Notes: a model not told the origin generated them from the sequence alone. DNA of 64,000 nt from Rhodothermales bacterium (GCA_028284265.1 JANQRZ010000004.1:186001-250000); one strand, 5' to 3'; shown: positions 29,268-59,358, counted from the first letter of the stretch. Made by a program: numbers and translations.

Positions 29268-29320
29268 CCGCAGGCCTGCCCCGTGCCCCCGCAAGAACGT
29301 GGCGGAGGGTAGGTTTCGCT

Positions 29321-29351: not shown

Positions 29352-29376
29352 GGGCGTTCACCTACCCAGACCCGCA

Positions 29377-29940
29377 ATGCACGACGTAGACGTTACAGGG
29401 CTTCTGGAAGCCTCACGCGAAGGCAACACTGAGGCTACGGATCGCTTGCTGGCGGCGGTGTATGACGAACTTCGGATGATTGCTGCGGCGCATCGTGCCC
29501 GCAACAAGGTGGGCGAGACGCTCACGGTGACGTCACTGGTCCACGAGGCATACCTCAAGCTGGTGGACGATCAACGGTTGTCCTTCAATGGGCGGGCCCA
29601 TTTTTTCGGCGCGGCCGCCCGCGCCATGCGTCAGGTGGTTGTGGATGCTGTCCGGGCGCGGGGGCGGGAGAAGCGGGGGAGCGGAGCGCGCCCGCTTCGG
29701 CTTGATGAGGCCCCTCCGGTCACGGATGCGTCGCGTTCGGAGGACGTGCTCGCGCTCGAACGTGCGCTCGAACGGTTCGAGGCGGTTGATCCGCGCGCAG
29801 CCCGTGTCGTTGAGTGCCGCTACTTCGCCGGGCTGTCGATCAAAGAGACCGCCGAGGCGCTCGATCTCTCGCCGATGACCATCAAGCGTGATTGGGCAGT
29901 GGCGCGGGCTTGGCTTCACCGTGCTTTGGATGCGCCTTGA
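29377..29940 (+). CDS. ECF-type RNA polymerase sigma factor (Sigma70_ECF/TIGR02999 type)
   Basis: A 187-residue protein. The start MHDVDVTGLLEASREGN is preferred because upstream codons encode the promoter region. Region 2 (~10-85) contains TSLVHEAYLKLVDDQRLSFNGRAHFFGAAARAMRQVVVDAVRAR, in outline the signature of this ECF subgroup. Region 4 (~125-182) holds AARVVECRYFAGLSIKETAEALDLSPMTIKRDW, a helix-turn-helix. Members characteristically lie beside Ser/Thr kinases with TPR tails, as here, rather than beside anti-sigma factors. The kinase probably controls its activity. Confidence 0.93.
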   Translation: MHDVDVTGLLEASREGNTEATDRLLAAVYDELRMIAAAHRARNKVGETLTVTSLVHEAYLKLVDDQRLSFNGRAHFFGAAARAMRQVVVDAVRARGREKRGSGARPLRLDEAPPVTDASRSEDVLALERALERFEAVDPRAARVVECRYFAGLSIKETAEALDLSPMTIKRDWAVARAWLHRALDAP

Positions 29941-30008
29941 GGCTGGGCAGATTGCTGATGGTCCGACCTAGGGCCGCACGGCGTATGGAGTAACAAACCC
30001 CTCGCCCG

Positions 30009-39902: not shown

Positions 39903-40946
39903 ATGGGTATCACCATTCATGACGTGGCGCGCCGCGCGGGCGTGTCGATCTCGACCGTGTCTCGTGTGCTCAATGACACGACCGCGGTTCACGAGGACAA
40001 ACGACGCTCCGTCATTGAGGCAGCGGAGGCGCTCGGATACAGTCCCAACCCGGCTGCCCGCAGCTTGCTCGGCAAGAAGACTGGCGGCATCGGTGTCCTG
40101 CTGCCCCACGTAGGGGGCGAGTTCTTCGCCGAGTTGCTCAACGGCCTCGACGAAGCGGCGCATGCGAGCGGTCACTTTCTGGTGATCTCGACTTCCTATC
40201 GCCACCGCGATGAGTTCAACGCGGCAATCCGGGCGATGGACCGGCGCGTGGATGGGCTTATCGTCATGGCCCCCGAACTTGATGCAGAGGGTGTGGCGTC
40301 TATCCTGAGTTCGGGCAATGCGGTGTCCTTTATCAACACGTTGGTCGAGGAAGGGTCCGCTGATGTATTGAACTTCGACAACTTTGGTGGGGCGCTCGCG
40401 CTAACCCAGCACCTCCTCGGCCTAGGGCACCGTCGAATCGCTCTCATCAAGGGGCCGTCGGGTGCGTGGGATGCGCAAGAGCGTGTGCGAGGCTACCGGG
40501 CTGCGATGGCCGAGGAAGGGATAGAGGACACCGCAAGCCTTGAGTTCGAAGGAGAGTACACTTCGATTGCGGGCTATGACGCCACGGGCGCAATCCTTGA
40601 AGCCGTTCCCCAGCCGACAGCCATCATCGCCGCGAACGACGATTGCGCAGCAGGTGTACTCAGTGCGCTGAGCGAAGCTGGAGTCAGTGTTCCCCATGCG
40701 GTGGCTGTTGCGGGATTCGACGGGATACCTAGCACGCAGTACACGCTGCCGCCCCTAACAACCGTCCGGGTGCCCATTGGCGAGATTGGCTACCGAGCCG
40801 TCAGTCGGCTTGCAGCCCGGATTGAGGATCAAGAAGGAGAGGTGGCTACGCAGTACGAGACGGTTCCGGTCGAGCTAGTAGTACGTAAATCTACAGTGGC
40901 AGCGCTGCCAGATTCCGCTGACCTAGGCGCCGCTTCAACCGGATAG
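39903..40946 (+). CDS. LacI-family transcriptional regulator of the glucan locus
   Basis: A 347-residue protein. The N-terminal helix-turn-helix (ITIHDVARRAGVSISTVSRVLN, ~3-24) and hinge helix (NPAARSLLGKK) are followed by a periplasmic-binding-protein-like effector domain (~62-330). It ends just before a perfect 20-bp palindrome at 41003 of the type bound by LacI regulators, upstream of eight carbohydrate genes on the same strand. The simplest reading is a repressor released by a glucan-derived sugar. The effector is not known. It is divergent from thrS. Confidence 0.92.
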   Translation: MGITIHDVARRAGVSISTVSRVLNDTTAVHEDKRRSVIEAAEALGYSPNPAARSLLGKKTGGIGVLLPHVGGEFFAELLNGLDEAAHASGHFLVISTSYRHRDEFNAAIRAMDRRVDGLIVMAPELDAEGVASILSSGNAVSFINTLVEEGSADVLNFDNFGGALALTQHLLGLGHRRIALIKGPSGAWDAQERVRGYRAAMAEEGIEDTASLEFEGEYTSIAGYDATGAILEAVPQPTAIIAANDDCAAGVLSALSEAGVSVPHAVAVAGFDGIPSTQYTLPPLTTVRVPIGEIGYRAVSRLAARIEDQEGEVATQYETVPVELVVRKSTVAALPDSADLGAASTG

Positions 40947-41002: not shown

Positions 41003-41022
41003 TTTTGAAAACGTTTTCAAAA
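41003..41022. promoter_or_regulatory. LacI-family operator, perfect 20-bp palindrome
   Basis: TTTTGAAAACGTTTTCAAAA is fully self-complementary, with the central CG typical of LacI/GalR/CcpA-type operators. It lies 57 nt after the regulator gene and 77 nt before the next ATG. Its left part coincides with the -33 box of the promoter at 41004-41034, so binding would block RNA polymerase. No second copy was noticed in the window. Confidence 0.8.
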
Positions 41023-41034: not shown

Positions 41035-41098
41035 CAAAGCCCCGTCCTATATTGGCGTGGGCTCCAACGAACGCACCCCTCCTAGACCGCTACCGACC

Positions 41099-42070
41099 AT
41101 GACTTTTCTGCTACAGCCTTTCGCTTCCTCACGGCGCGGCTTCGATGGCATCCTTGCCTTGGCCGCTTTCGCCCTACTGGCCGCCACGGCGCTGGCTCCT
41201 CAGACGGCCCATGCGCAGGTCATCATTGACGATTTCAACGATGGCAACGTGGACGACATCATCACCTTCGCTGGCGGTGCCGACATGATCGGCATCGGCG
41301 TCGGCCCCGGCATCGGCGAAGACGGCACCGCTGACACGGGCCTCTCGATCGGCATCAACCCCGGCGCGGGCGGCGGCTTCGCGGGCTTCGTGGTCCCCGG
41401 CGGTGACGGCACCACCGACGTCACGGGCACGGAGTACCTGACGTTCTTCCTCGATCCGGGCACCATCGCGGCGGGCAACCAGCCGCTGAAGCTGGAGATC
41501 AACCTGCAGGAGGACCTCAACGGCGATGGGATGTTCGAGAACGGGGGCACGACCGAGGATGAGTTCCGGGCGGAGTACCTCGTGATGCCGGGTAGTGGCT
41601 ACCATCTGGTGCAGATTCCGCTGGCGTCGTTCACGGACGAGAACGCGAACACGCCGGGCGCGGACGACGGGTTCGACTATGCGAACCTGCTGCAGGTGGT
41701 GTTCGCCTACGGTGGGCTGCAGGGGCCTGAGTTCACCTTCCTCATCGACGAACTTGGCTTCAGCGACGCTGTGACGGTGGCCAACGAGCCGGGCACGCCG
41801 TCCGGCACGGCTTCCCTGAGCAGCGCCTACCCGAACCCGTTTGCTTCGCGGGCACAGTTCAACCTGACGCTCGACAACACGGAGTCCGTGCGCGTCGAGG
41901 TGTTTGATGTGCTGGGCCGCCGCCTTGCGCTTCTGCACGACGGGCCGCTCGCGGCGCAGACTGTACACACGTTCGACCTCAACGGGAGCGCGTGGAGCAA
42001 CGGGATGTATCTCTACCGCGTCACCGGCGAGACGTTCAGCGAGACGCGCCGAGTGGTTCTCACGAAGTAA
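41099..42070 (+). CDS. T9SS-sorted secreted protein with carbohydrate-binding-like module
   Basis: A 323-residue protein. A signal peptide (to ~AQTAHAQ, residue ~40) is followed by a beta-sandwich module (~42-225) containing YLTFFLDPG, LKLEINLQEDLNGDG and FTFLIDELGF, which resembles CBM11-like jelly rolls. The C-terminus (~240-323) is a type IX sorting domain with SAYPNPF, VEVFDVLGRR and NGMYLYRVTG. It should be exported to the surface or medium. The module is closely similar to that of the incomplete gene at the right edge of the window. First gene after the operator, so probably an abundant glucan-binding protein. Confidence 0.8.
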   Translation: MTFLLQPFASSRRGFDGILALAAFALLAATALAPQTAHAQVIIDDFNDGNVDDIITFAGGADMIGIGVGPGIGEDGTADTGLSIGINPGAGGGFAGFVVPGGDGTTDVTGTEYLTFFLDPGTIAAGNQPLKLEINLQEDLNGDGMFENGGTTEDEFRAEYLVMPGSGYHLVQIPLASFTDENANTPGADDGFDYANLLQVVFAYGGLQGPEFTFLIDELGFSDAVTVANEPGTPSGTASLSSAYPNPFASRAQFNLTLDNTESVRVEVFDVLGRRLALLHDGPLAAQTVHTFDLNGSAWSNGMYLYRVTGETFSETRRVVLTK

Positions 42071-42095: not shown

Positions 42096-44198
42096 ATGCC
42101 GCCACGGATCATCCCCGCCATCGCGGTCGGCAGCCGCCTACGTGCTGCTGCCGACCGCCACCTCGGAGCTACAGCGCTGCTCGCGCTCGTCATCGCTGCG
42201 ATGGTCAGCCTCACACCGCAGGCTACCGCCCAGCTATTGGACAGGGACGATGCCGGGGCACCGGGCACAGACCTCATCGCTTCCGGTGGTGTGGTCGTAG
42301 CGGACTCTGTCTACCGGGACTATCCTTCGGCGGACACCACGGAAGCGCTTCGCAAGGTGCCCATCGGTTTGACCGCCTTCGGGTACTACCGGCTGTTCGT
42401 CTACAGCCGCAACATCACGAACCCATATCCGAGTCTCGGCCCCTTCAACCGGGTGTACAATGTGGGCGACGGTTATCGTGAGCCGCTGCTCTCCGTCAAC
42501 GTCCTGGGTCGGCCGAGCGGGCGAGCCAGCTTCGGGACCGAACTCCTCCTCTTCTCCTTCTACGATGGGTCCGAGACGTTCGAGACCAATGCAATTACAC
42601 TCAACCTCGGACTCAATTTCTACGGCAACTTCCGAACCGAAGCGGGCAACTTCGGTGTCCGCGCGGGGGGCATCCACTGGTACAACCTGAGCCCGTTCAC
42701 GATCGGCGTTTACCAGGTCCTTGACCGGTTCTCGATCTTCGACCGGACGCCGTGGGAAGGAGTCAACGGTACGGAGAAATACTCGAACTACTTTGCGACG
42801 GGACAGGCCAATCCTGGAGATCAGCGCTGGAATTACCAAGCTTTCCAAGGGTTCATCCTCGACGGTCGTCGACTTCCCGGCGGTTTCGGTTTCGATGCCT
42901 TCTGGGGTAAGACGCAGCCCAACGGCGGCCTGCCGGGGGCTATCGACGATCCAAGCGAGACGGTGGCTGGCGAGGGCGAAGCGGGGGACGTCCCGACCTA
43001 CCAGGGCTTCGCCGGTGAGTCGCGCGTCCTGCCCAGCTTCATCACGGGCGGGCGTCTGCAGAAGGAGTTTGGCGATAACATGGTTGCCCTCAACACGATC
43101 TACAGCTATCGCACGCTCGACAGCCTCTCCGCCGAGCGCCGGGACTATCAAGTGCATACCGCCTCGTTTGATGCCAACGTGTCCGGCGTCAACCTGTCGG
43201 GCGAGCTAGGCGCGAGCAAGTTCGACAGCCCGGAATACACCTCAGAGTGGGGCGAGGCGCTTATGGTCCGGGCGAAGACGACGCCCGAGGTGACAGGCCT
43301 TCCGCTCGACGTGCAGCTTTACCAGATCGGGCGGCACTTTTTCAACGAGAACGGCGAGATCGCAACGAGCAACAACCCGGAGATCAACGCCAGCTTGGCA
43401 GGCTGCGGTGGGAACCAGATCGTACCGGGGCAAGCGTCGGTCGGCGGTCTCGTCACCCAAGTCAACCAACTCGCCCACAACCGGCGCGGCATCAACGTTA
43501 ACACGGCGTGGGCAGGCGGACCGGCCAAGCTGGCCGTTGGTTGGGGCCTCGCCCACGAACTCGCTCCGACGACGTCGGAGTTGTCGTACGTCCATCGCAT
43601 CAACGGCCTCGCCGTCTCGCGCATCTACAATCCCTTCTTTGCCCAAACTTGCTTGGACCCATTTGGGCCGTTCGGGCGGCAGTACGGGTTCTTCCGAGGT
43701 GTCTTCGAGCGCGTGCAGACCACAGACGTGGATCAGGTCACCGGTACCCCCACCAACCGCAAGTACTACCACGCCGTCGACCTCCAGGCCAAGTTCCAGG
43801 GACGTACGCTCGGTGGGCGCAATATCTATCTGTTCTACCTCGGGAGCTTCGGGTCCGCCAACCGTACGGCCCGCGCCCTGCCGACCGACGATGACACCTA
43901 CCTGTTTGTCCAGTATCATGAGTTCGACCTCTATCTCGAACTGGTCGACAACTTCCTCTTGGCCGGGTACCTCGGTCTGGAGAAGGTGAACGGAGGACGC
44001 TTCACGGACGTCGACCAAGCCAGCGGTAAGCCACGCGATCAGCGCGGTGTCGGTATCGGACTCGGCTTCGACTGGGCAATCGCATCCAACGCTGGTTTGT
44101 ACGTCCGCCACCGCTGGATGGACTTCGAGGACCGCAGCTTTGCGGTCGACAACTACGGGGGCCGTGAACTCACCCTCGAACTCAAAATCTTTTTCTAA
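42096..44198 (+). CDS. large outer-membrane beta-barrel protein, candidate glycan porin
   Basis: A 700-residue protein. A long N-terminal signal region ends near ATAQLL (~46). The rest is rich in alternating amphipathic beta strands (FRTEAGNFGVRAGGIHWYNL, NYFATGQANPGDQRWNYQAF, and final LTLELKIFF ending in Phe, the outer-membrane assembly signal). Neither a plug domain nor a SusC-like N-terminal domain is present. I do not recognise a family. It lies 25 nt after the T9SS protein and 11 nt before a second barrel, within a glucan operon, so transport of oligosaccharides is the natural hypothesis. Confidence 0.75.
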   Translation: MPPRIIPAIAVGSRLRAAADRHLGATALLALVIAAMVSLTPQATAQLLDRDDAGAPGTDLIASGGVVVADSVYRDYPSADTTEALRKVPIGLTAFGYYRLFVYSRNITNPYPSLGPFNRVYNVGDGYREPLLSVNVLGRPSGRASFGTELLLFSFYDGSETFETNAITLNLGLNFYGNFRTEAGNFGVRAGGIHWYNLSPFTIGVYQVLDRFSIFDRTPWEGVNGTEKYSNYFATGQANPGDQRWNYQAFQGFILDGRRLPGGFGFDAFWGKTQPNGGLPGAIDDPSETVAGEGEAGDVPTYQGFAGESRVLPSFITGGRLQKEFGDNMVALNTIYSYRTLDSLSAERRDYQVHTASFDANVSGVNLSGELGASKFDSPEYTSEWGEALMVRAKTTPEVTGLPLDVQLYQIGRHFFNENGEIATSNNPEINASLAGCGGNQIVPGQASVGGLVTQVNQLAHNRRGINVNTAWAGGPAKLAVGWGLAHELAPTTSELSYVHRINGLAVSRIYNPFFAQTCLDPFGPFGRQYGFFRGVFERVQTTDVDQVTGTPTNRKYYHAVDLQAKFQGRTLGGRNIYLFYLGSFGSANRTARALPTDDDTYLFVQYHEFDLYLELVDNFLLAGYLGLEKVNGGRFTDVDQASGKPRDQRGVGIGLGFDWAIASNAGLYVRHRWMDFEDRSFAVDNYGGRELTLELKIFF

Positions 44199-44209
44199 CC
44201 GCCACTCGC

Positions 44210-46018
44210 ATGCGCCCACTCTTTCGAACGTGTCTGCTCGTCTCGGCCCTGACACTGCCGCTGGCACCCGGCGTCGTCGCGCAGGGTGCCCCGGATGCCG
44301 AGGATGGTCCCGGCGTCCAATTCAACGGCTACGGTCGTAGCTACATTCAGCAGACTGGTCTCGGGGGCGAGGTCCTCGATCCCGACACGCTTGCTGTCGA
44401 GAACATCGCCGACGGCGAGTTCGTGCTCGACCTCGCGGTAAACGCCCAGCCCAACAGCGTCACCGAAGTGCAGGCCGTCATCCGGATGCGAAACGAGTTC
44501 GGAGGCTTTTTCGGGGCGGGCGCGACGCTGGAGGTCCGCGAATTGTGGGCACGCGGCGTCATCGCCGACGTGCTGCGCTACCGGATCGGCGACATGGACA
44601 TGGCGCTTACGCCTTACACGCTTTTCCTGCCGGACGCGGACGCTGTGGTGAACGCTCCCGAGCTGTTTCGACCGCAGCGCGAAGCCGTCTACTACGATGA
44701 GTTCTACACCGGCTTCAACACACGCCGCCTCCAGGGTGCAAAGGTCGACTTCGGCCTGGCCTTTGACCGGGGGCTTGACGCGGTGGACGTGCAGCTCTTC
44801 CTAGCCCGGCTCCGTGCGACGGACCTGCTCAATGTCCCCACCCGATTTATCGGAGGTGGGCGTGCGGCCTTGGTTGCCGGTCCCTTCGGGTCCTACGGTA
44901 CCATGGCGAAAGCCGGGGTCAACGTGGCCTATACGTGGGACGACCTCAAGTCAGGTGAGGCGAACACCGGCATCCGCAACGCGGTCATTTCGCTCGACGG
45001 TGATCTGACTATCCTCGATCAGGACGCCTATGATTTGCATCTCGTCGGCGAAAGCGGCTGGTCGCTCGTCCGGCTTAAAGAGAACACCAACGACGAGGAA
45101 GCGGAAGAGGCCGGGGAGCCTGTCGATGAGATCTTTGTCGAGGACACGGATACGTTCATCGAGATCGGTTTGGCAGGCACGCTCAAGGACCAGCACATCG
45201 GCCTGTCTGCGATGTTTGTCAACGTCGGCCCGGAGTTCTACAGCGCTGCCGCGCAGAGCAAGCGGATCGACTACACGCGCACGAAGTCTACCTTTAACCG
45301 TGTCGGAGCCGATGCCATCGTCCGGCCGGTTGCTCTCTTCGACATCACGCGGGATGCGGCCCTCTACACGTCCCGCATTGGGGACAACCTGATGATGTAC
45401 GATCCGCGCTATGGGAACGTGCTGCCCTTCGGCCGGGCCACACCCAACCGGCGCGGTGTCCGGCTCGGTGCTTCGTATACGCCGGACAACCTCCCGGTTG
45501 ATGCCGCGCTGGACTTTGCTGCACTCACAGAGATTCGGGGTGAGGGGACGGAGGAACTGAAAAACTTTATCCTGTTGCGCGGCGAGGCCAACGTGGCCGT
45601 CAATGAGTTCTTCGAGTGGGACCGCATGATCGGGATCACCCTCGGGACGCAGGTCGAGAACACGAGCCGGAGCGGGGAGCCTGCCGAGGAAGTCGATCTC
45701 TCGTCGGTGCTGTTCGAGGCGGGTGCGTCCGCCGAGGTCTACGACCGGCTCGATGTGCTCGTTGGGGCCAAGCTCCGCACCTCGACCGGGCGTGACTACT
45801 TGCCGCAGATTGAGAACTTCAACGATATCCGCGACTTCTTCGAGCCGTTCGTGACGGACGATCAGGAGTCGCTCGTGGGGGCGGGGCTCCGCTACCGGTT
45901 CCGGGACGGGATCGCGCTCACGGTGCAGTACCAGCACTTCAGCTATGGCAGCGATGTCAATCCGGATGCTGATTACACGCTGGGTCAGATCTTCGCTCTC
46001 TACACGATGACGTTCTAG
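44210..46018 (+). CDS. second outer-membrane beta-barrel protein
   Basis: A 602-residue protein. The signal peptide ends near APGVVAQ (~25). The remainder has the alternating pattern of a large barrel (VQFNGYGRSYIQQTG, RYRIGDMDMALTPYTLF, LGASYTPDNLPVDAALDFAAL, GLRYRFRDGIALTVQYQHF) and ends in FALYTMTF with a terminal Phe. No plug, no TonB box, no known family recognised. Together with the preceding gene it could form a transport or export pair. The next gene begins 3 nt downstream and encodes a lipoprotein, suggesting tight coupling. Confidence 0.75.
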   Translation: MRPLFRTCLLVSALTLPLAPGVVAQGAPDAEDGPGVQFNGYGRSYIQQTGLGGEVLDPDTLAVENIADGEFVLDLAVNAQPNSVTEVQAVIRMRNEFGGFFGAGATLEVRELWARGVIADVLRYRIGDMDMALTPYTLFLPDADAVVNAPELFRPQREAVYYDEFYTGFNTRRLQGAKVDFGLAFDRGLDAVDVQLFLARLRATDLLNVPTRFIGGGRAALVAGPFGSYGTMAKAGVNVAYTWDDLKSGEANTGIRNAVISLDGDLTILDQDAYDLHLVGESGWSLVRLKENTNDEEAEEAGEPVDEIFVEDTDTFIEIGLAGTLKDQHIGLSAMFVNVGPEFYSAAAQSKRIDYTRTKSTFNRVGADAIVRPVALFDITRDAALYTSRIGDNLMMYDPRYGNVLPFGRATPNRRGVRLGASYTPDNLPVDAALDFAALTEIRGEGTEELKNFILLRGEANVAVNEFFEWDRMIGITLGTQVENTSRSGEPAEEVDLSSVLFEAGASAEVYDRLDVLVGAKLRTSTGRDYLPQIENFNDIRDFFEPFVTDDQESLVGAGLRYRFRDGIALTVQYQHFSYGSDVNPDADYTLGQIFALYTMTF

Positions 46019-46021: not shown

Positions 46022-47059
46022 ATGCGATTGATGCACGATTCAAACACGACGCGGCACCCGTTCGGGCTGGTTTGGGGCTGCACCTTCGTTCTTCTTCTAA
46101 GCGCGGCTTTTCTCGGCTGCGACCATGCCACGGAAGCCGCTGGCCCTAGCCTCATCGTTCGCTTCGGCGAGTTCGAGCTTCAGGAGTCCCTCAGCGCCAG
46201 CCGAGACTCCGTGGACTTCGCTATGGGCGAGAGCGTGAGCTTCAGCGCCCGGTTCAACAAGCCCGTCAACTGGACGGTCGAGATCACTGGCCAGGAGAGT
46301 GGAGCCATCAAGCGCGTGCAGGGCTTCTCCAATGAGCTAACCGAGGAGAACGCGCGCTGGGTTGGAGGGACGACCCAACTCCCGCTTTTCCGCCAAGAAC
46401 CCGTCAGTGCTGTGCTCCTCGTTTCGGATGAGGATTTCGTGGCACCCGACACCGTTCGGATCGGCGTGCTCTCGGAGCGCTCATACCCCGGCAATGTCGT
46501 GACCAGCTTCGAAGATGATGACGAGGCTGTTGCAACGCTCCGGAATTTTGAGTTCGAGCTGGATGCTGCTTCAGGTCCAAGCATGGAGGTGCCCGCCGCC
46601 GCAGGTGAGACGTTCTACCTCCTGCGCGGTACCGACACCGTGGTCGATAACTTCTTCGTCGGGTTGGCCGAGATCACGTCGCGGAGCAACGACGGCTACT
46701 TCATGGTCCCCACGAATGTGCCGGAGAACCTCTTCTTCAATGCGTTCCTTTACAATTTCGGTAGTTCAAATACCATTGCCATCCTTGATGTCGTTGTGGA
46801 TACCAACGGCAACGGTACGTTCGAGGACGGCACGGACGCCATCTTTGGCTCGGGTGACATCCGGCTAGATGAGCCAGGATGGTCGCAGTTCTCACAGTCC
46901 ATTGCGGAGTTCGGGCTGACCGAAGCGCAGACGCAGCAGATTGTAGCGGTGCGCCTCGTGCTCATCTCCGACAACAACAGCCAGCCAGATCCTCGCGAGC
47001 CTGTCGATTTCGGTGTCGACTACATCACATTCACGGCGGGCGGTCCTCTCAGACCGTAG
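46022..47059 (+). CDS. surface-type lipoprotein of the glucan operon
   Basis: A 345-residue protein with an N-terminal lipobox (VLLLSAAFLGC, Cys33). An Ig-like domain (~40-150, with FGEFELQESLS and GESVSFSARFNKPVNWTVEI in outline) precedes a jelly-roll module (~155-340) that includes VVTSFEDDD, DVVVDTNGNGTFEDG and VDFGVDYITF, similar in kind to carbohydrate-binding modules. No catalytic motif. By position it resembles surface glycan-binding proteins that feed an outer-membrane channel. The start 3 nt after the barrel gene supports a joint function. Confidence 0.72.
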   Translation: MRLMHDSNTTRHPFGLVWGCTFVLLLSAAFLGCDHATEAAGPSLIVRFGEFELQESLSASRDSVDFAMGESVSFSARFNKPVNWTVEITGQESGAIKRVQGFSNELTEENARWVGGTTQLPLFRQEPVSAVLLVSDEDFVAPDTVRIGVLSERSYPGNVVTSFEDDDEAVATLRNFEFELDAASGPSMEVPAAAGETFYLLRGTDTVVDNFFVGLAEITSRSNDGYFMVPTNVPENLFFNAFLYNFGSSNTIAILDVVVDTNGNGTFEDGTDAIFGSGDIRLDEPGWSQFSQSIAEFGLTEAQTQQIVAVRLVLISDNNSQPDPREPVDFGVDYITFTAGGPLRP

Positions 47060-47076: not shown

Positions 47077-48354
47077 ATGATTCAGCGACGCTCTTTCCGG
47101 CCTATCGCCTCTTCTGCTTTGTTCCTAGCAGGTGCCCTGCTGGTGTCCGGGTGTGTGCAGTTCCAGCCAGCGATGCTCTATTCCGGGATGGAAGCCGCGC
47201 CCGTGCCTGAGCGTCCGCGCACCCTCTCGCTCGCCGCCGAACCGATCATCTTCGACGATCAGACAGACGACACGATCTGGTTCCAAGATGACGCGCGCTG
47301 CACGCAGGGCGAGGTGACCTCGGATGTGGTCTACGCCGGCCAGCGTGCGGTCGCGGTTTCGTGGAACCGCAATGCCGACGGGTGCGAATGGGCAGGCTTC
47401 GGAATCGGTTGGGACGGGTGGGCTGGCAAGGACCTCTCCGAGTTGCTCCCCTATGCCGCCATCGAGATGCACGTGCGTTCCAAAGAAGGCACGATGTACG
47501 GCTTGCCCATCGTGCTCACGTTCGAGGACTATTCGGGTGGGATGGGCTTTGCTTACACGGGCAACGGCTACTTCGAGCGTTCCGTCATCGACGAGGACTG
47601 GCAAAAAGTGACAGTACCGCTCGCCAACTTCGATAACGAGATTGAGAACCTTGACATCACGAACGTCAAGCAACTCATGTTTGAGTTGCAGGGATCGGGC
47701 AGCATCTACATGGACGAGGTGAAACTCATCTTCTACGAAGAGCAAGAGCAAGAGCCGTGGCTCGTCGAAGAACCGCGCCCCGATCCAACCGCGCTTCCGA
47801 TTCAACTCTTCGACGACTCGTTCATCAACGACAACGGTTGGGGCCTCGTCTCCGATGGCTGCCAGACCGTCGAACTCACAGACGCCGACCCGTCCACCGG
47901 CTCTGCGGCGTTGCACCTGCGCTGGGACCTCAGCCCCGATCTGTGCTACCAAGGGTCGATGGGCGTAAGCTGGGATAAGTGGTACCCGATTGATATGACT
48001 GAGGTCGTCGAGCAGACGGCGATCCAGTTCGATGTGCGCTTGACGTCCGGCACGTCTCAGAGTATCCCACTCCGCTTTGGAATTGAGGATTACAACCGTC
48101 AGTTCTCTGGAGCGAAACTGGACGGAAGCTACACGGAGTCTGGCCGGTTTACATCCGAATGGCAGACGGTGACGATCCCGCTTGTCAACCTGCGAGGCGG
48201 TGGCTTCCAACTGGCCGCTGCCCCGGCGACGACTGGCAATGTAGCTGAGCCTCAAGGTCGCGCCGATTGGGGCAACGTCAAGCAGCTCATCATCTACATG
48301 GACGAAGCGGGCGAGGTCCTCCTCGACAACATTCGCCTCGTAGAGATCAACTGA
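47077..48354 (+). CDS. lipoprotein with two carbohydrate-binding-like modules
   Basis: A 425-residue protein. Lipoprotein signal (LAGALLVSGC, Cys26), then two tandem beta-sandwich modules: ~55-230 and ~248-424. They share the plan IIFDD/IQLFDDSF at the start, WAGFGIGWDGW/GSMGVSWDKW in the middle and a DEVKLIFY/DNIRLVEI close. This matches CBM11-like jelly rolls, some of which bind beta-glucans. Conserved Trp and Cys residues could form the binding face. A candidate surface glycan-binding protein for the barrel transporters. Confidence 0.78.
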   Translation: MIQRRSFRPIASSALFLAGALLVSGCVQFQPAMLYSGMEAAPVPERPRTLSLAAEPIIFDDQTDDTIWFQDDARCTQGEVTSDVVYAGQRAVAVSWNRNADGCEWAGFGIGWDGWAGKDLSELLPYAAIEMHVRSKEGTMYGLPIVLTFEDYSGGMGFAYTGNGYFERSVIDEDWQKVTVPLANFDNEIENLDITNVKQLMFELQGSGSIYMDEVKLIFYEEQEQEPWLVEEPRPDPTALPIQLFDDSFINDNGWGLVSDGCQTVELTDADPSTGSAALHLRWDLSPDLCYQGSMGVSWDKWYPIDMTEVVEQTAIQFDVRLTSGTSQSIPLRFGIEDYNRQFSGAKLDGSYTESGRFTSEWQTVTIPLVNLRGGGFQLAAAPATTGNVAEPQGRADWGNVKQLIIYMDEAGEVLLDNIRLVEIN

Positions 48355-48398: not shown

Positions 48399-49808
48399 AT
48401 GAAAGCACTCATCCGTGCGGTCACCTGTGCCGCCCTCCTCGCCTTTAGCCTCTCCGTCCAAGCTCAGACCGACGGACGGTCTACTCTCAACGAGCAGTCG
48501 GAAGAAGCCGCAGCCGTTACGGCTGTGCCTCTCGCGAATCAAGGGGCTATCCCCGTCGAGCTTCGCCAAGACGAGGATGGAGGCTGGACGCTGTATCGCG
48601 GCGGCGAGCCGTACTACATTAAAGGGGTCGGTGGACAGGTTCACCTCGACCGCGCTGTGGAATATGGGGCCAACTCGATCCGGACGTGGGGGGCTGGCGA
48701 GGCGATCGGCGTGCTCGATAAAGCGCACGAAATGGGACTGAGTGTCGTCTTCGGTCTGTGGGCCGGGGTGGAACGCCAAGGGTTCGACTACAACGACGGC
48801 AAGGCTGTTGCCGCGCAACTCGCACGCTTCCGTGAGGTGGTCCGAGCGTACAAAGACCACCCAGCCATCCTGATGTGGGGACTTGGCAACGAAAACGACC
48901 TGTTCTATACGGACTACAAAGTCTGGGATGCCCTCGGTGACATCGCAGAGATGATCCACGAGGAGGACCCCAACCACCCAGTGATGCATGTCACCGCTGG
49001 ACTCGACGTGGCCGAGGTGCAGCTCATCAAGGAACGTGCTCCTGCGATTGATGTCTACGGCGTCAACACCTACGGCGAGCTTGTCGGCGGGACACGCGAG
49101 TTTCGCTCATATGGATACGACGGGCCGAGCGTTGGCACCATGCTCCGGCGAGCAGGGTGGGACGGTCCCTACGTTATCGCAGAGTGGGGACCGGACGGAC
49201 ACTGGGAGGTGCCCAAGACCTCTTGGGGGGTGCCCATCGAGCAGACGAGCACGCAGAAAGCGAGGGTCTACCGTCTCCGCTATGAGGACGGTATCGCTGC
49301 CGATGACGAGTATTGCATCGGTTCCTATGCGTTCCTCTGGGGGCAAAAGCAAGAGACGACACCAACGTGGTACGGCATCTTCACGCCCGGCGGCTACGAA
49401 ACGGAGGTGTCGGATGTGTTACAGTACGTCTGGAGCGGCTCGTGGCCTGACAACCGAGCCCCTCGCATCGAGGGCTTCACGGCGAATGGTCAGGATATGC
49501 TTGCGAGCGTCTACGCTGATCCGCTCGACATCGTCACCTTCGTGGCAGATGTGAGCGATCCCGAGGGCGAGGATATCCGCTATGAGTGGGAGCTGCTTCC
49601 CGAGAGCACGGACATCCGTGCCGGTGGTGATGCGGAGGCCCGCCCCGATGCTGTCAGAATCAGCGTCGTCAGCCAAGAGGGCGGGACGCTCACCATCCAA
49701 ACGCCGCGCCTCGAAGGGCCGTACCGGATGTTCATCTACGCCTATGACGACGATGGGAACGTCGCGACGGGCAACTTCCCGTTTTACGTCGGACAGCCTG
49801 CCCCGTAG
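48399..49808 (+). CDS. secreted clan GH-A glycoside hydrolase (GH2-C/GH72-like TIM barrel)
   Basis: A 469-residue protein. The signal peptide ends near LSVQAQ (~23). A TIM barrel (~62-370) opens with YYIKGVGGQ and NSIRTWG, has the acid/base pair Asn164-Glu165 (WGLGNEND) and the nucleophile Glu262 (VIAEWGPDGHWE). A C-terminal Ig/cadherin-like domain (~385-465) follows. The glutamate arrangement is that of clan GH-A. The N-terminal motif recalls GH2 catalytic domains and beta-1,3-glucanosyltransferases, but the exact family cannot be fixed by eye. A cytoplasmic paralogue is encoded at 58010. Confidence 0.82.
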   Translation: MKALIRAVTCAALLAFSLSVQAQTDGRSTLNEQSEEAAAVTAVPLANQGAIPVELRQDEDGGWTLYRGGEPYYIKGVGGQVHLDRAVEYGANSIRTWGAGEAIGVLDKAHEMGLSVVFGLWAGVERQGFDYNDGKAVAAQLARFREVVRAYKDHPAILMWGLGNENDLFYTDYKVWDALGDIAEMIHEEDPNHPVMHVTAGLDVAEVQLIKERAPAIDVYGVNTYGELVGGTREFRSYGYDGPSVGTMLRRAGWDGPYVIAEWGPDGHWEVPKTSWGVPIEQTSTQKARVYRLRYEDGIAADDEYCIGSYAFLWGQKQETTPTWYGIFTPGGYETEVSDVLQYVWSGSWPDNRAPRIEGFTANGQDMLASVYADPLDIVTFVADVSDPEGEDIRYEWELLPESTDIRAGGDAEARPDAVRISVVSQEGGTLTIQTPRLEGPYRMFIYAYDDDGNVATGNFPFYVGQPAP

Positions 49809-49890: not shown

Positions 49891-50805
49891 ATGATCTATC
49901 GTCTCGCACTTCCTCTGGCTTTCGTCGCTGTTGTGGTCGTCGGTCTCGCCGGCTGTGACAACTCGGTCGAGCAAGTCATTCCCGATCCCGAACTCACGCC
50001 CGAGGGCTGGGCGCTCGTGTGGTCCGACGAGTTCGACGGGACCGAGGTTGACACGATGAAATGGGAGTTTCAGCTCGGCGATGGTTGTCCTGATCTCTGC
50101 GGGTGGGGCAACGCTGAGCTCCAGTCTTACAGCGCAGAGAATGCCACCGTAGCAGACGGCGTGCTGACGATTACGGCTCGCCAAGACACCCTGACGGGTG
50201 ATACTAGGTACACCTCCGCTCGCCTCCGCACGCTCGGGAAGGGTGACTGGACCTACGGTCGATTCGAGGTCAAAGCCAAGCTCCCGATCGGGCAGGGCCT
50301 GTGGCCGGCCATCTGGCTGCTCTTCAGCGAAGACACCTACGGCGGCTGGGCAGCGAGTGGCGAGATCGATATCATGGAGGCCATCGGCAGCGAGCCTGGC
50401 GAGGTATTCGGTACGCTCCACTACGGTGGACCTTTCCCCGATAATCAGTTCTCCGGCGAGGCTTTCGAACTCGCCGCAGGCACCATAGCCGATGACTTCT
50501 TTGTGTTCACAGTTGAGTGGGACGAGGCTATTCCTGACAATCCGGATACCGAAGACGTTGACGAGTTCGTGCCTACGACCATCCGCTGGTACATCAACAA
50601 CGTGCTCTATCAGACCCAGACCGAAGAAGACTGGTTTTCGACAGGCGCAACCGGGGGCAATACGGCTGCACCGTTCGACCATCCCTTCCACATGATCCTC
50701 AACGTCGCAGTCGGGGGCAACCTACCGGGCAACCCTGACGAGACGACCGTTTTCCCGCAGACGATGGAAGTGGACTACGTCCGCGTCTACGAGCGGAGCG
50801 AATAA
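49891..50805 (+). CDS. GH16 endo-beta-1,3-glucanase (laminarinase type), lipoprotein
   Basis: A 304-residue protein. Lipobox VVGLAGC (Cys22) anchors it to the membrane, probably at the surface. The GH16 domain (~40-303) has LVWSDEFDG, CGWGNAELQ, the LWPAIWLL strand, and the catalytic ExDxxE as GEIDIMEAIG (Glu158 nucleophile, Asp160, Glu163 acid/base), the form with the extra residue seen in laminarinases. Trp and His residues (WSDEF, HPFHMILNVAVGG) shape the cleft. It would cut laminarin or mixed-linkage glucan into oligosaccharides. This is the strongest indicator of the locus substrate. Confidence 0.93.
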   Translation: MIYRLALPLAFVAVVVVGLAGCDNSVEQVIPDPELTPEGWALVWSDEFDGTEVDTMKWEFQLGDGCPDLCGWGNAELQSYSAENATVADGVLTITARQDTLTGDTRYTSARLRTLGKGDWTYGRFEVKAKLPIGQGLWPAIWLLFSEDTYGGWAASGEIDIMEAIGSEPGEVFGTLHYGGPFPDNQFSGEAFELAAGTIADDFFVFTVEWDEAIPDNPDTEDVDEFVPTTIRWYINNVLYQTQTEEDWFSTGATGGNTAAPFDHPFHMILNVAVGGNLPGNPDETTVFPQTMEVDYVRVYERSE

Positions 50806-50856: not shown

Positions 50857-53037
50857 GTGATAGAGCCTCGGATTCGGGCGTTGCTCGATGCGATGACGCT
50901 GGACGAGAAGATCGGCCAGTTGTGCCTCGTGATGGGCGGCGAGGGCACCATCCCAGATTGGATCGGTGACGCCGTAGTGCGGGGCCGCGTCGGGGCCGTA
51001 CTCAACGAGGTTCACGTCGATACGGTAAACGAACTTCAGCGCCTCGCCACAGAGGAGAGCCGACTCGGGATCCCGCTGCTCAACGGCCGTGATGTCATCC
51101 ACGGCTTCGAGACCATCTTCCCGCTTCCTCTCGGTCAGGCGGCAACGTGGAACCCGGAACTCGTCGAACGTGGCGCGCGGATCGCTGCGCGAGAAGCAGC
51201 CGCGGCGGGGGCCAACTGGAGCTATGCGCCCATGCTCGATATCGGGCGCGATCCGCGCTGGGGTCGCATTGCTGAGACGTTTGGGGAAGACCCGTACATG
51301 ATCAGCGTGATGGGCGCTGCGATGGTGCGCGGCTTTCAAGGCGGGAACCTTGCAGCGCCCGACGCGGTCGCAGCCTGCGCGAAGCACTTCGCTGGGTACG
51401 GTGCCAGTGAAGGCGGACGCGACTACAACACGACGAATATCCCCGAGCACGAGCTTCGAAACGTGCACCTCGTACCGTTCAAAGCAGCGCTCGACGCTGG
51501 AGCGGCCTCGCTCATGGCCTCGTTCAGCGACCTGAACGGGGTGCCAGCCACGGGCAACCGGTGGCTATTGACCACCGTTCTGCGAGACGAGTGGGGCAGC
51601 GATGCGCTCACCGTCAGCGACTGGAACTCCGTCGCCGAGTTGTACACGCACGGGCTGGCGGCAGACCACCGCGAGGCCGCCTTCGAGGCGATGACCGCCG
51701 GGCTGGACATGGAGATGTCGAGCACCACGTACATCGACCACGTCCATGCCCTCCTCCAAGCCGGGCGCATCACGGAAGAGCTGATCGATGCCCGCGTAGC
51801 CAACGTACTGCGTCTCAAGTTCCGCCTCGACCTGTTCGAGAATCCCTACACCGACCCTGCCGCGTTTCCTGCGCCCGCCAATGCCAACCACCTCGACGCA
51901 GCCCGGCTTGCAGCTACGCAGAGTGTTGTGCTGCTCAAGAACGACGAGCGAGCGCTGCCTCTCACTGCGGACCGGCTGAGTCGCCTTGCTGTGATCGGCC
52001 CGCTCGCCGACGATGAATACGAGCAACTCGGCACCTGGGCCTTCGACGGCAACCCGGAGCACAGCCAGACACCGCTCGGTACGCTTCGCAAGCGTTTCGG
52101 CGATGCGATGGAGATTCAGTACATACGGGCGCTAGAGACGACGCGCAGCCAGAGCCGGGACGGATTTGGTGATGCCATCAAAGCCGCCAAGCAGTCGGAC
52201 GCCGTGCTGCTGTTCTTGGGCGAGGAGGCCATCCTCTCCGGCGAAGCGCACTGCCGCGCCGACATCGGGTTGCCCGGCGCGCAGGAAGCGCTCATCGACG
52301 CGCTCGCAGCGGTCGGTACGCCGCTCGTGCTCGTCGTGATGGCAGGCCGCCCGCTCACGTTGGAGTCAGTTCTCGACAAGGTCGATGCCCTCTTGTTCGC
52401 GTGGCATCCGGGCACGATGGCGGGTCCGGCACTCGTGGACCTGCTGTTCGGTGACGTTTCGCCATCGGGTAAGCTGCCGGTGACGTTCCCCCGGATGGTA
52501 GGCCAGGTCCCGCTCTACTATGCCCACAAGCATACGGGACGCCCGCCGACGCCGCATACCAGCACCCACATCGACGACATCGAGCCGCGTGCCGTGCAGA
52601 CGTCGGTCGGCAACACCTCATTCTACCTAGACGCTGGGTACACACCGCTCTTCCCGTTCGGCTTTGGGTTGTCCTATGCCGCGTTCGAGTACGCCCACAT
52701 CGAAACGAGCATCCACGAAATAATGCTTGGTGAGACGCTCACTGTGACCGCCGAACTAACCAACGTGGGCGATTGCGAGGCCGACGAGGTAGTGCAACTC
52801 TATGTCCGCGACCTCGCGGGAAGCGTGACCCGGCCCGTGCGTGAGCTAAAAGGTTTTCAGCGTGTCAGCCTCGGTCCTGGTGAGCGCACGACCGTCGCTT
52901 TCCAACTTCACACCGACGACCTCGCGTTTTACGACCGGCACATGCAGCGCGTCACCGAACCGGGTACTTTCCACGTCTGGATCGGCGGCGACTCAACCAC
53001 GGAGCTACGTACGGAGTTCGTCGTGACGGCAGGCTGA
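50857..53037 (+). CDS. GH3 beta-glucosidase
   Basis: A 726-residue protein with a GTG start and no signal peptide, so probably cytoplasmic. The GH3 N-terminal barrel (~1-320) contains GRDVIHGFETIFP, KHFAGYG (176-182) and the nucleophile Asp255 in LTVSDWNSV. The alpha/beta sandwich domain (~350-560) carries a candidate acid/base Glu in LGEEAILSGEAHCR, and a fibronectin-III-like domain closes the protein (~640-720). It likely releases glucose from short beta-glucan oligosaccharides. Last gene of the plus-strand operon, ending 8 nt before the convergent transporter gene. Confidence 0.93.
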   Translation: MIEPRIRALLDAMTLDEKIGQLCLVMGGEGTIPDWIGDAVVRGRVGAVLNEVHVDTVNELQRLATEESRLGIPLLNGRDVIHGFETIFPLPLGQAATWNPELVERGARIAAREAAAAGANWSYAPMLDIGRDPRWGRIAETFGEDPYMISVMGAAMVRGFQGGNLAAPDAVAACAKHFAGYGASEGGRDYNTTNIPEHELRNVHLVPFKAALDAGAASLMASFSDLNGVPATGNRWLLTTVLRDEWGSDALTVSDWNSVAELYTHGLAADHREAAFEAMTAGLDMEMSSTTYIDHVHALLQAGRITEELIDARVANVLRLKFRLDLFENPYTDPAAFPAPANANHLDAARLAATQSVVLLKNDERALPLTADRLSRLAVIGPLADDEYEQLGTWAFDGNPEHSQTPLGTLRKRFGDAMEIQYIRALETTRSQSRDGFGDAIKAAKQSDAVLLFLGEEAILSGEAHCRADIGLPGAQEALIDALAAVGTPLVLVVMAGRPLTLESVLDKVDALLFAWHPGTMAGPALVDLLFGDVSPSGKLPVTFPRMVGQVPLYYAHKHTGRPPTPHTSTHIDDIEPRAVQTSVGNTSFYLDAGYTPLFPFGFGLSYAAFEYAHIETSIHEIMLGETLTVTAELTNVGDCEADEVVQLYVRDLAGSVTRPVRELKGFQRVSLGPGERTTVAFQLHTDDLAFYDRHMQRVTEPGTFHVWIGGDSTTELRTEFVVTAG

Positions 53038-53045: not shown

Positions 53046-54500
53046 CTAGCCTGTCTCGCTAGCGGTGGCACCACGCCGTGCTTCTAGCTCTGCTCGCACA
53101 TCGTAGGCTGTCTCCTCGGTGATCGGGAACCGCCACACGGCCCAGATTGCAATGGCCGACGTGACTGCCGGGATGACCACGTCGAAGATGCGCATCAGGA
53201 AGAGCGTCTGTTCGGTCTGCGCGCTGCCGAGTTCCACGGCGAAGCCGGTTGCGTTGAGGAGGAAGCCGCCTGCCGCGAGCGCCGCTGCCATCCCGAGCTT
53301 GACGACCCACCAGTAGATCGAGCCGAACATGCCCTCGCGTCGTTCGTAGCTCGTGATCTCGTCGAAGTCCACCACATCGGCAATCATGGACGGGACTAGG
53401 GTGAAGAGGCCACCGAGCCCGAACGCCATGAGAGGCGCGGGGAGCATCACCAGCCACGGAATCTCCGGGTTGTAGGCCGGCCACTTCAGCAGGTAGCCCA
53501 CGACCGATATCCCGATGGCGATCATCAATGCCCGCCGCTTCCCGATCTTCGTTCCGAGCCACGTCACGAACACGACGACCGCGAATGTGGCCACCGCGCC
53601 AACCGACCCGGCATAGCCCGCGTACTGTGCGCCTAGCGTCTCGTTGCCGCCGCAGACGTAGTAGATGATCACGTAGAACTGGAACGACGCGATCAGCATG
53701 AACCCGTTGAAGATCAGGAACGTCGCTGCGCAGAGCAGGAGGAAGGGGCGTGACTGCAGCACCGTCCCGAAGCCCTGGAAGAACGACTTGAGGATGTTCA
53801 GCATCCCCCCGCTGCTAGTGGCTTTGCCTTCGGCTGTAGCTACGGCTTTGAACGGCTCGCGCAGGAAGATTGCCGGGAGCACACCGATCGCTATCACGAT
53901 GACAGCGATGATGATGGCAAGCCCCGCCGCGCCCTCGCGCTGGTTGGCGAAGAAGCCCTCGTAGGACATGATCCACAGGAACCACGGCGAGGCGACGTAG
54001 GCGAGCTGCCCGATGAAGTTGGACGTGCCCATGAGCCGCGTGCGCTCATGGTAGTCCGCCGTCAGCTCGAAGCCGAGTGCCACCCAGGGTGTCGCCCAGA
54101 CCGTGTAGGCGAGGTAGAAAAAGAGCGAGCCGATCAGGAAGTAAACGAAGTAGAACGTCTCGCTCCGCCCCTCAGGAAGCTGCCACAGGAAGATGAAAAT
54201 GAGGCCGACGGCAATGGCGCCTCCAAAGATGTAGGGTCTGCGGCGGCCCCACCGCGTCCGCGTATTGTCGGAGATATACCCCATCATGGGGTCGGTGAAG
54301 GCGTCGGTGATGCGCGGGAGCGCGCCGAGGAGTCCGACGAGTGCCGGGTTCATCCCGAAGCCGAGGTTCAGGACGATCATCATCCCGCCACTCGCACCTG
54401 CTAGCAGGTTATTGACGAAGGCCCCCAGCCCATAGATGATGCGGTGGCCAAAAGAGATACGGTCCTTCGCAGCGGTCTCGTGGTGGACGGGAGCGTTCAT
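53046..54500 (-). CDS. GPH-family (MelB-type) sugar:cation symporter
   Basis: A 484-residue inner-membrane protein with about 12 helices. The family loop GYISDNTRTRWGRRRPYIFGG lies between helices 2 and 3, and the C-terminal half has FDEITSYERREGMFGSIY, both typical of glycoside-pentoside-hexuronide symporters. It would import di- or oligosaccharides with Na+ or H+. It begins 1 nt after the stop of the phosphorylase gene, so the two are co-translated, linking uptake to phosphorolysis. Confidence 0.92.
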   Translation of the reverse strand: MNAPVHHETAAKDRISFGHRIIYGLGAFVNNLLAGASGGMMIVLNLGFGMNPALVGLLGALPRITDAFTDPMMGYISDNTRTRWGRRRPYIFGGAIAVGLIFIFLWQLPEGRSETFYFVYFLIGSLFFYLAYTVWATPWVALGFELTADYHERTRLMGTSNFIGQLAYVASPWFLWIMSYEGFFANQREGAAGLAIIIAVIVIAIGVLPAIFLREPFKAVATAEGKATSSGGMLNILKSFFQGFGTVLQSRPFLLLCAATFLIFNGFMLIASFQFYVIIYYVCGGNETLGAQYAGYAGSVGAVATFAVVVFVTWLGTKIGKRRALMIAIGISVVGYLLKWPAYNPEIPWLVMLPAPLMAFGLGGLFTLVPSMIADVVDFDEITSYERREGMFGSIYWWVVKLGMAAALAAGGFLLNATGFAVELGSAQTEQTLFLMRIFDVVIPAVTSAIAIWAVWRFPITEETAYDVRAELEARRGATASETG

Positions 54501-54501: not shown

Positions 54502-57500
54502 CTAGCGTGCTGGTGGGAGGTCTAGGTCGATTCGTGTGATTCGTCCGGTGCGTCCGAATACCTCAGCGCTGAGGTCACGGCTGAGAGCGTCGCCTTCAAT
54601 CTCGGTCACGGTTCCGTCCACTTCAGTGATGCGAACCGCGAGCGCATCGGCGCGGCGGTAGACAACCGGAATCTGGCAGTAGGTGAACGCCAAGCTGTCG
54701 GCGTTGAGGTCAATCGTTTGCGCGTTGCCGTGAAGGTCGAGGTAGCGGAACGTCGCCGCGTTGTGGAGGAACTCATCAGCCCGAAGAAGAGCGGGGCGGA
54801 AGACAATCTGCCCATCCCGGACCAGCAGACCCAACTCGCCCCAACGGCACAGGATATCCTCTTTGACCTGGCCCGTCATGCCGGGCTGCTTCGCGCCCGC
54901 ATGGCCCGGCGTGTGGGAGTAGGCGTCGGTCGGGAAAGCGCCGTACTCTTCCGGTGTCTTGTTTACGCCGAGACCAGCCCGGATGTCGTAGTAGGCAGCG
55001 GCGAGGCGTTCGAGGACAGTGGCATCTTCTCCGGCAGCGTGGGCGCGGAAGAAGGTCTCTTGGGTAGCGAGGGCGAGTTTGGAGACCATGTGCCAGTAGA
55101 TGCTTCCTAGTCCCTCGTAGCCGAAAAACGTGCCCGAGCGCCCGGTGTAGGCGCGGTGGTTAAAAATCTGCTCGAACGTGTCGAGCACATGCTTTGCCTC
55201 GCGGTCCACGAGGTCGGCGTATCCCTTCGCGCGGAGGGCGTCGAGGGCAGTCTGCACACTGGACTTGTTGCGGAAGGTGCCGTTGAAATGGATGCCGCCG
55301 CGCCGGTCCTGCACGATGAGGCTGCGGTCGCCGTCAGCAATCAGGGTTCGGAGCAACTCCGATTCAGCTACCGCTTCGGGCGGGAGGTTGTTCTTCGAGA
55401 GGAAGTCCGGGAGGTCACGGTCGGGGTAGAGGGTGTAGCTGTGCTGGTCTGGGCGGTAGAGGTCGCTCATCCGCATCGCTTCGAGCACGTCGGCGGACGC
55501 TTCGGGGGAGAGCACACCGGCGTCGAGCGACGCGACCTGACCTTCGAGCATCGCGTAGAGATGCGACACCGAAACCTCGTCGCCCTCGACCGCCATCAGG
55601 TTGTAGGCGTGGAAGAGGCCATCGTCGCGCCGGTTGACCGCGATGGTATGATCTAGGAACGCTGTCGCTCGTTCGATGAGGGCTTGGATGTCGGTATAGG
55701 CAACCTCGTCCGTCTCACCGGAAAGGCCAGCCTCGTAGAGCCGTTCGCGGTGGGTGCTCCCGGCAAGGCCGAGGGCATCGACGATCTGCTTGCGCTCGGC
55801 ATCGCTCAGGTTGCGGCCTGCGAGGTCTGCGTGCTGCTCGAAGGCTGCTGCGACGTTGCCTAGCAACTCGGCGACCTCCGCAGAGAGTGTGGTGTGCTCT
55901 CCCGGGGCGTCGCTAAGTAGGGTACGGAGGAAGGCGAGGTACCGCCGGACGGCGAAGAGGGTCACCATCGAGACGCCGTTGCCGACGAGCGCGTTGTTGG
56001 CGTCGTTCCACTCGGGGCGCTGGGTGTTCATCCAGATGCCGCCCTCGGGGATGAAGTTGGTCAGCTTGGCGAGGACCGTGACGAGGAGCTTCTCGGCAAA
56101 CGTCACCCGAAGCACGTTGCCGCTGCCGTCCCATAGCAATTTGCCGTCGGCCCCGACGGATGCCACACGCTCAGCGATGCGCTCCTCTTCGTCGTCGTCA
56201 TAGACGACGGTGTCGTGTGGGTTGCGGAGGAGGTCAGCGTAAGGCTTGATCCGGTAGGGGACGTTCGCATAGCTGTATAGCCGACGTGCGAGGATGTCGC
56301 TCAGGCGGCCCGGGTCATGGTCGTGGAAGAGGGTGAGAAGGCGGAGGAGGTAGATGATCTGGTGGTCGCCCCAATAGCCGATGTACGACCACGGGTCGTC
56401 CGGCTCGATGATCTCCCAGTCGATGCCCTCGTCGGTGATCCGGTACGGGTTGTAGCCGTCGGCGGTCGAGGCGTTGACGAAGGTGGCGATGATCCCTTCG
56501 AGGAAGCCGGGGAACGAGCGGCTGAGTGCTTCCCAGTTTTGGAAGATGTCGCGCCAGTTGCCCTCGTAGCCTCGCTTCATCGAACCATCTTGGTTCGTGG
56601 TCTCGATGGAGAAGTGGTTCCACGGGCGGCTCGGGTCCCCGTGGCGGCGGCTGAAGTGCAGCGGGAGATAGGTGGTGCAGAGTCGTTGCAGGTCCGCGCT
56701 TCCTGCTTGCGCCGACTCGTGTAGGGCTTGGATGGAGAGACGCTGGGGAAGGCCGTTGAACCAGTCTGCGTGGGCCTCGGCGACGGGCGCGTTGAAGTGG
56801 GTGATGTAGGCGCGTACGTCCTCGCGGTTGACGACGTAGCCCTCGTCGAAGATGCCGCCCCGCATGATGTTGAAGAGGACGTTCATCCGGTGGCGCGCGG
56901 TCGTCATACGCTCGCCCGTGCGCTGCTCACCATCGGATGCGGCGATGAGGTAGCGAAGCCGGGCGCGGCCAGCCTCGATGTCGCGGTTCAGGTCGTCGCG
57001 GAGCGCGTCAGGGTCGGCAAGGCGGTCTTGGAGGTTGATTACATCAGCGACGTCCTGCTCGATGTCCGCTACGAGATCCCAGTCATGCGCCTCGCCCGGA
57101 TCGAGGTTTAGTGTAGCGTGAACGAAATACGCTCCCCGCTCGGCGCGCACGGCGTCTTCGGTCTTGACGGCGTGCCCGGTACGGAAGCGGTCGAGCTGGC
57201 GCGCTGAGAGCAGGATGGCTTCGGCGTCAAGGCCAACAGACCACACGGTGGTCGCCTTCAGCGCTTCGCTCGGCTCGGCTTTGTCGACGGGGATAGCGCT
57301 CAGGGTGAACAGCCCGAGGGGTGTGTTAGGGACGCGCTCGTTCTTCTTGTACGCATCGGCGAGGACGCTCCGCTCGGTTTGCATCGAGCGTTCGATCCCG
57401 TAGGGCATCAGGTTTTGCACGCCGTCGAGAAGGCGCACCGAGACGGGGCCAGAACCGTGGTTCTTCAGCACCGAGCGCTTGACGAACCCAAACGTTTCGC

Positions 57501-59320: not shown

Positions 59321-59358
59321 GGAGACGCAGGCAGTCGGGTTCGCAGTGGGGCGTTTGC

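Follow-up and report, generated by a model that had tools for sequence, protein, structure and literature searches.

A candidate SusCD-independent uptake module for beta-1,3-glucan oligosaccharides: two plug-less outer-membrane barrels and a lipoprotein conserved in Rhodothermota, Saprospiria and Flavobacteriales

Glycan-utilisation loci of Bacteroidota are usually found and counted by their SusC/SusD genes, and SusC is a TonB-dependent transporter (TBDT) in which an N-terminal plug domain (PF07715) lies ahead of a 22-strand barrel. The 1,3GUL of Bacteroides uniformis, a locus for beta-1,3-glucan, has the gene order TBDT, surface glycan-binding protein A (SGBP-A), SGBP-B, GH16, GH158 and GH3 (PMC7157763). 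The stretch analysed here (the window) comprises 64,000 nucleotides from a Rhodothermales bacterium (GCA_028284265.1 JANQRZ010000004.1:186001-250000) and contains genes for two outer-membrane barrels, B1 and B2, and a lipoprotein, LP1, that stand ahead of an SGBP-B-like lipoprotein, LP2, and therefore in the position of SusC-SusD. We put at roughly two in three the probability that B1-B2-LP1 is an outer-membrane uptake module for beta-1,3-glucan oligosaccharides that is independent of SusCD and has neither plug nor TonB box; as part of the same reading, the module would do the job of SusC-SusD without kinship to it. The four genes are as follows.

42096-44198, plus strand: B1, 700 amino acids, intact open reading frame (ORF); predicted plug-less outer-membrane barrel, about 24 predicted strands
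44210-46018, plus strand: B2, 602 amino acids, intact ORF; predicted plug-less outer-membrane barrel, about 22 predicted strands
46022-47059, plus strand: LP1, 345 amino acids, intact ORF following B2; lipoprotein with acidic residues past the lipidated Cys, predicted to be surface-exposed
47077-48354, plus strand: LP2, lipoprotein with CBM30-like and SGBP-B-like domains, no export signal

Loci retrieved through genome searches carry B1-B2-LP1 in the same order and on one strand in Rhodothermota, Saprospiraceae, Lewinella and Cryomorphaceae. Lewinella cohaerens, Cryomorpha ignava and Roseithermus sacchariphilus are among the carriers that have been cultured. In a comparative set of 72 B2 places across Rhodothermota, Saprospiria and Flavobacteriales, B1 satisfied a strict rule at 69 and LP1 at 68. 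The failures trace to contig ends, to a single damaged gene in a draft assembly, and to over-long frames in GC-rich genomes, in which tblastn places the neighbouring gene where it is expected. The order hardly varies even where identity drops to about 30%, and a divergent member in genome G079 (25-32% identity) has the arrangement B1-B2-LP1-LP2-GH3-GH16-GH158 adjoining an SSF symporter. Within the order of that genome (taken to be Flavobacteriales, because Cryomorpha ignava belongs to it), a profile including the G079 member found B2 in 105 of 299 sampled genomes, and all 40 loci fetched from the order carried B1-B2-LP1. GH158 was close by in 40 of the 43 B2 places with ample flanks, and the glucan-type loci have LP2 and GH158 as neighbours, together with GH16, GH3, GH149 and sugar porters. 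Because the arrangement recurs in all comparable loci it is not due to chance: about 70 loci preserve B1-B2-LP1 as a unit, and LP1, not LP2, is the invariant lipoprotein partner of the barrels. Gene order, conservation, the absence of SusCD from the loci and enzyme family membership were each observed directly.

The absence of SusC and SusD was assessed using hidden Markov models (HMMs) built from local SusC and SusD sequences, which scored at least 260 bits for SusD and above 1000 bits for SusC in five control loci (all five SusD were held out, and four of the five SusC belonged to the training set). No SusC or SusD above 100 bits was detected in any of the 72 B2 neighbourhoods, and the SusC HMM did not detect the B1 and B2 frames. 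In the genome from which the window comes, SusD_RagB matches once, on a different contig, and SusD-like_3 does not match. SusD elsewhere in a carrier genome is common but not required, because 12 of 34 carriers in Flavobacteriales lack a SusD_RagB match and two further module carriers (G008 and G013) lack any SusD match; several near-complete genomes are among the carriers without any. GH158 in other Bacteroidota was found in a canonical locus (SusC-SusD-LP2-like lipoprotein (65 bits)-GH16-MFS-GH158-GH149 in genome G163), in a GH149-GH158-porter cassette, or alone.

A reading made from the sequence only had described two barrels with signal peptides, an alternating beta pattern and a terminal Phe, but with no plug, TonB box or recognised family, spaced 11 nt from each other and 3 nt from a lipoprotein, and each part of this description held. 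The gaps are 11 nt (B1-B2) and 3 nt (B2-LP1) between intact ORFs, signal peptides were read by eye on both barrels, and both end in Phe, with a C-terminal aromatic residue kept across homologues. In-strand hydrophobicity alternation was 1.85 for B1 and 1.93 for B2, compared with 1.35 +/- 0.20 and 1.30 +/- 0.21, respectively, in within-strand shuffles (z 2.4 and 3.0). AlphaFold2 models from family alignments are large barrels for each protein alone (mean predicted local distance difference test score, pLDDT, 71.8 and predicted template-modelling score, pTM, 0.72 for B1; 73.9 and 0.74 for B2), and the counts of 24 and 22 come from DSSP strands whose connections alternate between long and short, and may be in error by up to two. 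Neither model has space for an N-terminal plug: the segment ahead of the first strand is too short, at 89 residues for B1 and 35 for B2 even when the signal peptide is counted, and in B1 this stretch is not conserved. No PF07715 match was found in B1, B2 or their scanned homologues, and no conserved TonB-box motif was seen by eye in the N-terminal stretch of 30 B1 and 32 B2 homologues. The barrel fold and the lack of a plug are supported by prediction in both proteins. In the models, B1 has long, strongly conserved loops at 193-248, 275-313 and 412-462, and also 501-528, and B2 has one at 340-413; B1 193-248 and 501-528 and B2 340-413 are candidates for a constriction or for contact with LP1.

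Database searches assigned neither barrel to a family. B1, B2 and LP1 had zero matches over curated cut-offs in Pfam and NCBIfam, homologues scanned singly (30 B1, 32 B2 and 24 LP1) gave weak generic barrel matches only (Porin_4 in 2 of the 32 B2, best 5e-4), and profile searches of the PDB with B1 and B2 gave no match; a known identity for the three proteins was sought in Pfam, NCBIfam and PDB (phmmer and profile) with nothing usable. The profile searches that had been proposed, against alginate-export, OprB and FadL-type families, returned no curated match, with no window protein over the Pfam/NCBIfam cut-off for OprB, OprD, Alginate_exp, FadL or Porin_4. No match to a family of unrelated role was found, and a function as a type IX secretion system component or in lipopolysaccharide assembly was dropped for want of any match and in view of the catabolic neighbours. 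Homology between B1 and B2 was likewise rejected (hhalign probability 1.4%). Foldseek and VIA-align matched the two models to numerous large barrels (usher, TonB-dependent, OprD and AlgE types), and because these matches are generic and their scores tied, no family was assigned from structure.

The lipoproteins were compared by counting acidic residues at positions +2 to +6 after alignment on the conserved Cys. LP1, which has a lipobox and an export-type signal, averaged 2.5 (minimum 2) in the main set, LP2 averaged 0.2 and SusD controls 2.0; in a wider set, 52 of 66 LP1 had at least two acidic residues. The motif C-x-K-[DE]-[DE], demonstrated in Capnocytophaga as a minimal lipoprotein export signal (PMC5080379), was present in 17 of the 66. 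From this acidic export-type signal LP1 is predicted to lie outside, exposed at the cell surface. LP2 matched PF21582 (5.3e-14) and PF18329 (1.1e-07) in a Pfam scan on a longer frame and, despite its resemblance to SGBP-B, may face the periplasm. Neither LP1 nor LP2 matched a SusD_RagB or SusD-like domain. The analogy of plan with SusCD, without homology, that had been proposed from gene spacing is supported by the roughly 70 conserved loci, by the occupation of the SusC-SusD slot in beta-1,3-glucan loci and by the export-type signal of LP1.

The remaining features of the locus are listed below.

39903-40946, plus strand: LacI-family regulator (Pfam LacI 7.7e-18, Peripla_BP_3 6.3e-38)
41003-41022: perfect 20-bp palindrome TTTTGAAAACGTTTTCAAAA, a putative LacI-family operator overlapping a promoter-like site
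41057-42070, plus strand: type-IX-secreted protein with a weak CBM11-like match (TIGR04183 4.6e-11, Por_Secre_tail 4e-07)
48399-49808, plus strand: GH158 (endo-beta-1,3-glucanase family) with signal peptide (phmmer: 9oro 1.7e-92, 6pal 3.1e-62)
49891-50805, plus strand: GH16 lipoprotein (PF00722 7.2e-14), with a lipobox then acidic residues by eye
50857-53037, plus strand: GH3 beta-glucosidase-type enzyme (PF00933 1.2e-75), no signal peptide seen
53046-54500, minus strand: MFS_2 inner-membrane sugar transporter (PF13347 1.1e-63)
54502-58131, minus strand: GH149 1,3-beta-glucan phosphorylase (NF058639, 1632 bits vs cut-off 1150)
58010-59383, minus strand: second GH158 (48% identity to the first, E 6.2e-113)
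59359-60897, minus strand: MFS sugar porter (PF00083 4.7e-108)

The plus-strand operon has the order type-IX-secreted CBM-like protein, B1, B2, LP1, LP2, GH158, GH16, GH3, and the first GH158 resembles characterised GH158 enzymes over nearly its full length (the 9oro match spans 52-465). GH158, GH16 and GH3 stand with glycan-binding-type lipoproteins, as in a beta-1,3-glucan locus, and this is kept in relatives; because GH158, GH16, GH3 and GH149 co-occur, the substrate of the module is probably beta-1,3-glucan of the laminarin type. The GH149-GH158-sugar-porter cassette that holds the second GH158 (58010-59383) also occurs alone in other genomes. In Rhodothermota the LacI gene is kept beside the locus and the CBM11-like type-IX-secreted gene precedes B1. 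The palindrome, between the LacI gene and the operon, has a LacI-family core (TGAAAACGTTTTCA) that occurs in exact form nowhere else in the genome, and overlaps the best promoter-like site; related loci have similar sites at the same position and, in three, also ahead of a sugar porter gene. Its role as an operator is supported by prediction. In trees of B2 and GH158 the Rhodothermota copies are nested within relatives from Saprospiria/Lewinella, which suggests that the lineage of the window gained the locus (39903-60897) horizontally as a block.

Elsewhere in the window, two adjoining type-IX-secreted proteins with FlgD-like matches, one of them weakly CBM35-like, lie at 61034-63998 and are possibly further surface binding proteins. 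A TonB-dependent receptor (plug and OMP_b-brl_3 barrel) at 8672-11284 is 31 kb from the module and unrelated to it, and an extracytoplasmic function (ECF) sigma factor gene is directly followed by a Ser/Thr kinase with tetratricopeptide repeats (29299-32492).

In the proposed mechanism, the surface GH16 and type-IX-secreted binding proteins would trim and hold the glucan, LP1 would capture chains at the surface and dock on the barrels, and oligosaccharides would cross the outer membrane via B1 and/or B2. LP2 would bind glucan on the periplasmic side or at the surface, GH158 would shorten it in the periplasm, the major facilitator superfamily (MFS) porters would bring the products across the inner membrane, and GH3 and GH149 would complete the breakdown in the cytoplasm, with the operon governed by the LacI regulator. 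Complex formation, transport, passage through a pore, its direction, the size of the substrate and the energy source are features that we infer for the module.

A second, diverged set of B1-B2-LP1 is present in some genomes (loci L199, L201, L203 and L206); it is accompanied by neither LP2 nor GH158 and lies among sulfatases and CBM4/9 type-IX-secreted proteins, sometimes with GH3. In each of the three gene trees (B1, B2, LP1) these four sulfatase-linked sets group as one clade with full support, although the trees were made by a fast method and have long branches, so that branching depth is to be read with care. Because the clade recurs in all three trees, B1, B2 and LP1 duplicated and diversified together, and the minimal unit is B1-B2-LP1; the sulfatase-linked unit seems, from its neighbours, to have been reused for another, probably sulfated, substrate. 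A recurrent protein of about 575 amino acids lies beside the sulfatases (L201:350-2074, plus strand; L203:2688-4361, minus strand; L206:15203-16951, minus strand); the two copies scanned (L201 and L206) had no Pfam match, and it is possibly an unrecognised glycoside hydrolase. We give even odds to the broader proposition that B1-B2-LP1 is a separate class of glycan importer, in which one TonB-independent complex serves two or more classes of substrate (beta-1,3-glucan, sulfated glycans) and is widespread in Flavobacteriales, Saprospiria and Rhodothermota. The module was not found described in the literature on SusCD-independent loci, which is weak evidence drawn from open-licence papers only.

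Several points weigh against uptake of beta-1,3-glucan through B1-B2-LP1. Both barrel models are only moderate in confidence, their long conserved loops (B1 193-248, 275-313 and 412-462; B2 340-413) may shut the lumen, and a big unplugged pore would damage the outer-membrane barrier unless it were gated. The export-signal rule comes from outside Rhodothermota and may not apply there, LP1 has no fold assignment, and many carrier genomes have SusD elsewhere. A positive shift of pore-lining charge had been predicted for the sulfatase-linked paralogues and was not borne out, with B1 inward charge lower in 4 of 4 genome pairs and B2 mixed.

As B1 and B2 have no detectable kinship their roles may differ, and one barrel might be the glycan channel and the other a helper that flips or anchors LP1, perhaps with other surface proteins, at the cell surface, which would suit an LP1 that follows the barrels throughout and has an export signal; however, nothing resembling a known exporter of lipoproteins was found and many unrelated surface lipoproteins use such signals (PMC5080379), and we regard this division of labour as unlikely. 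Slightly less likely again is that B1 and B2 are diverged substrate-selective porins with OprD, AlgE or OprB-like folds that serve separate diffusion and form no complex. OprD-type and AlgE porins are among the tied best structural matches (Z about 12-15) and the two weak Porin_4 matches among B2 homologues point the same way, but ushers and TonB-dependent barrels score equally well in the structural comparison, the 22-24 predicted strands exceed 16-18, and the strict linkage of two unrelated barrels with LP1 and their joint duplication argue for a common unit. The likeness of the models to the exporters AlgE and FimD equals their likeness to importers, and type-IX-secreted proteins adjoin the Rhodothermota loci, as they might if the barrels exported or anchored a polysaccharide or such binding proteins; this is highly improbable, as the identifiable genes around them are catabolic (GH158, GH16, GH3, GH149 phosphorylase, sugar porters and sulfatases) and in some lineages B1 lacks a neighbouring homologue of the type-IX protein seen in the window.

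B1-B2-LP1 is probably an unrecognised route of algal sugar uptake in marine Bacteroidota and Rhodothermota. Scans based on SusC/SusD would miss the module loci, though B2 homologues occur in about one-third of the sampled Flavobacteriales genomes. Laminarin stores a very large amount of algal carbon, and an unrecognised route for its import, if true, would alter estimates of which organisms consume it. Should the barrels prove independent of TonB, this would show that larger oligosaccharides can be taken up with no energy input at the outer membrane.

Set against known systems, the locus is a variant of a known beta-glucan utilisation locus whose uptake module fits no family found and might form a separate class. 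The barrels are plug-less and without visible TonB dependence, as are the passive oligosaccharide porins (OprB, LamB, ChiP, CymA, AlgE and OprD type), but are predicted to be larger, are strictly paired with a lipoprotein and have no convincing sequence match to them. The chaperone-usher pore FimD/PapC, also a large barrel, scored highest in structure for both models (Z 15.8 and 16.1), although many other barrels tie with it; B1 and B2 lack the accessory domains of ushers, and their unrelated context includes neither chaperone nor pilin genes. As with SusC-SusD, genes for a barrel protein and a surface-type lipoprotein head a glycan locus and are followed by a second binding lipoprotein and enzymes; in contrast to SusC-SusD, the module has two unrelated barrels and no plug, TonB box or SusD, and no sequence similarity was found. 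Downstream of their uptake genes, the module loci and the 1,3GUL of B. uniformis alike encode GH158, GH16, GH3 and an SGBP-B-like lipoprotein, but the module loci have B1-B2-LP1 in place of the TBDT and SGBP-A, LacI or Reg_prop/Y_Y_Y/LuxR regulators where the 1,3GUL has a hybrid two-component system, and GH149 and sugar porters in addition (PMC7157763).

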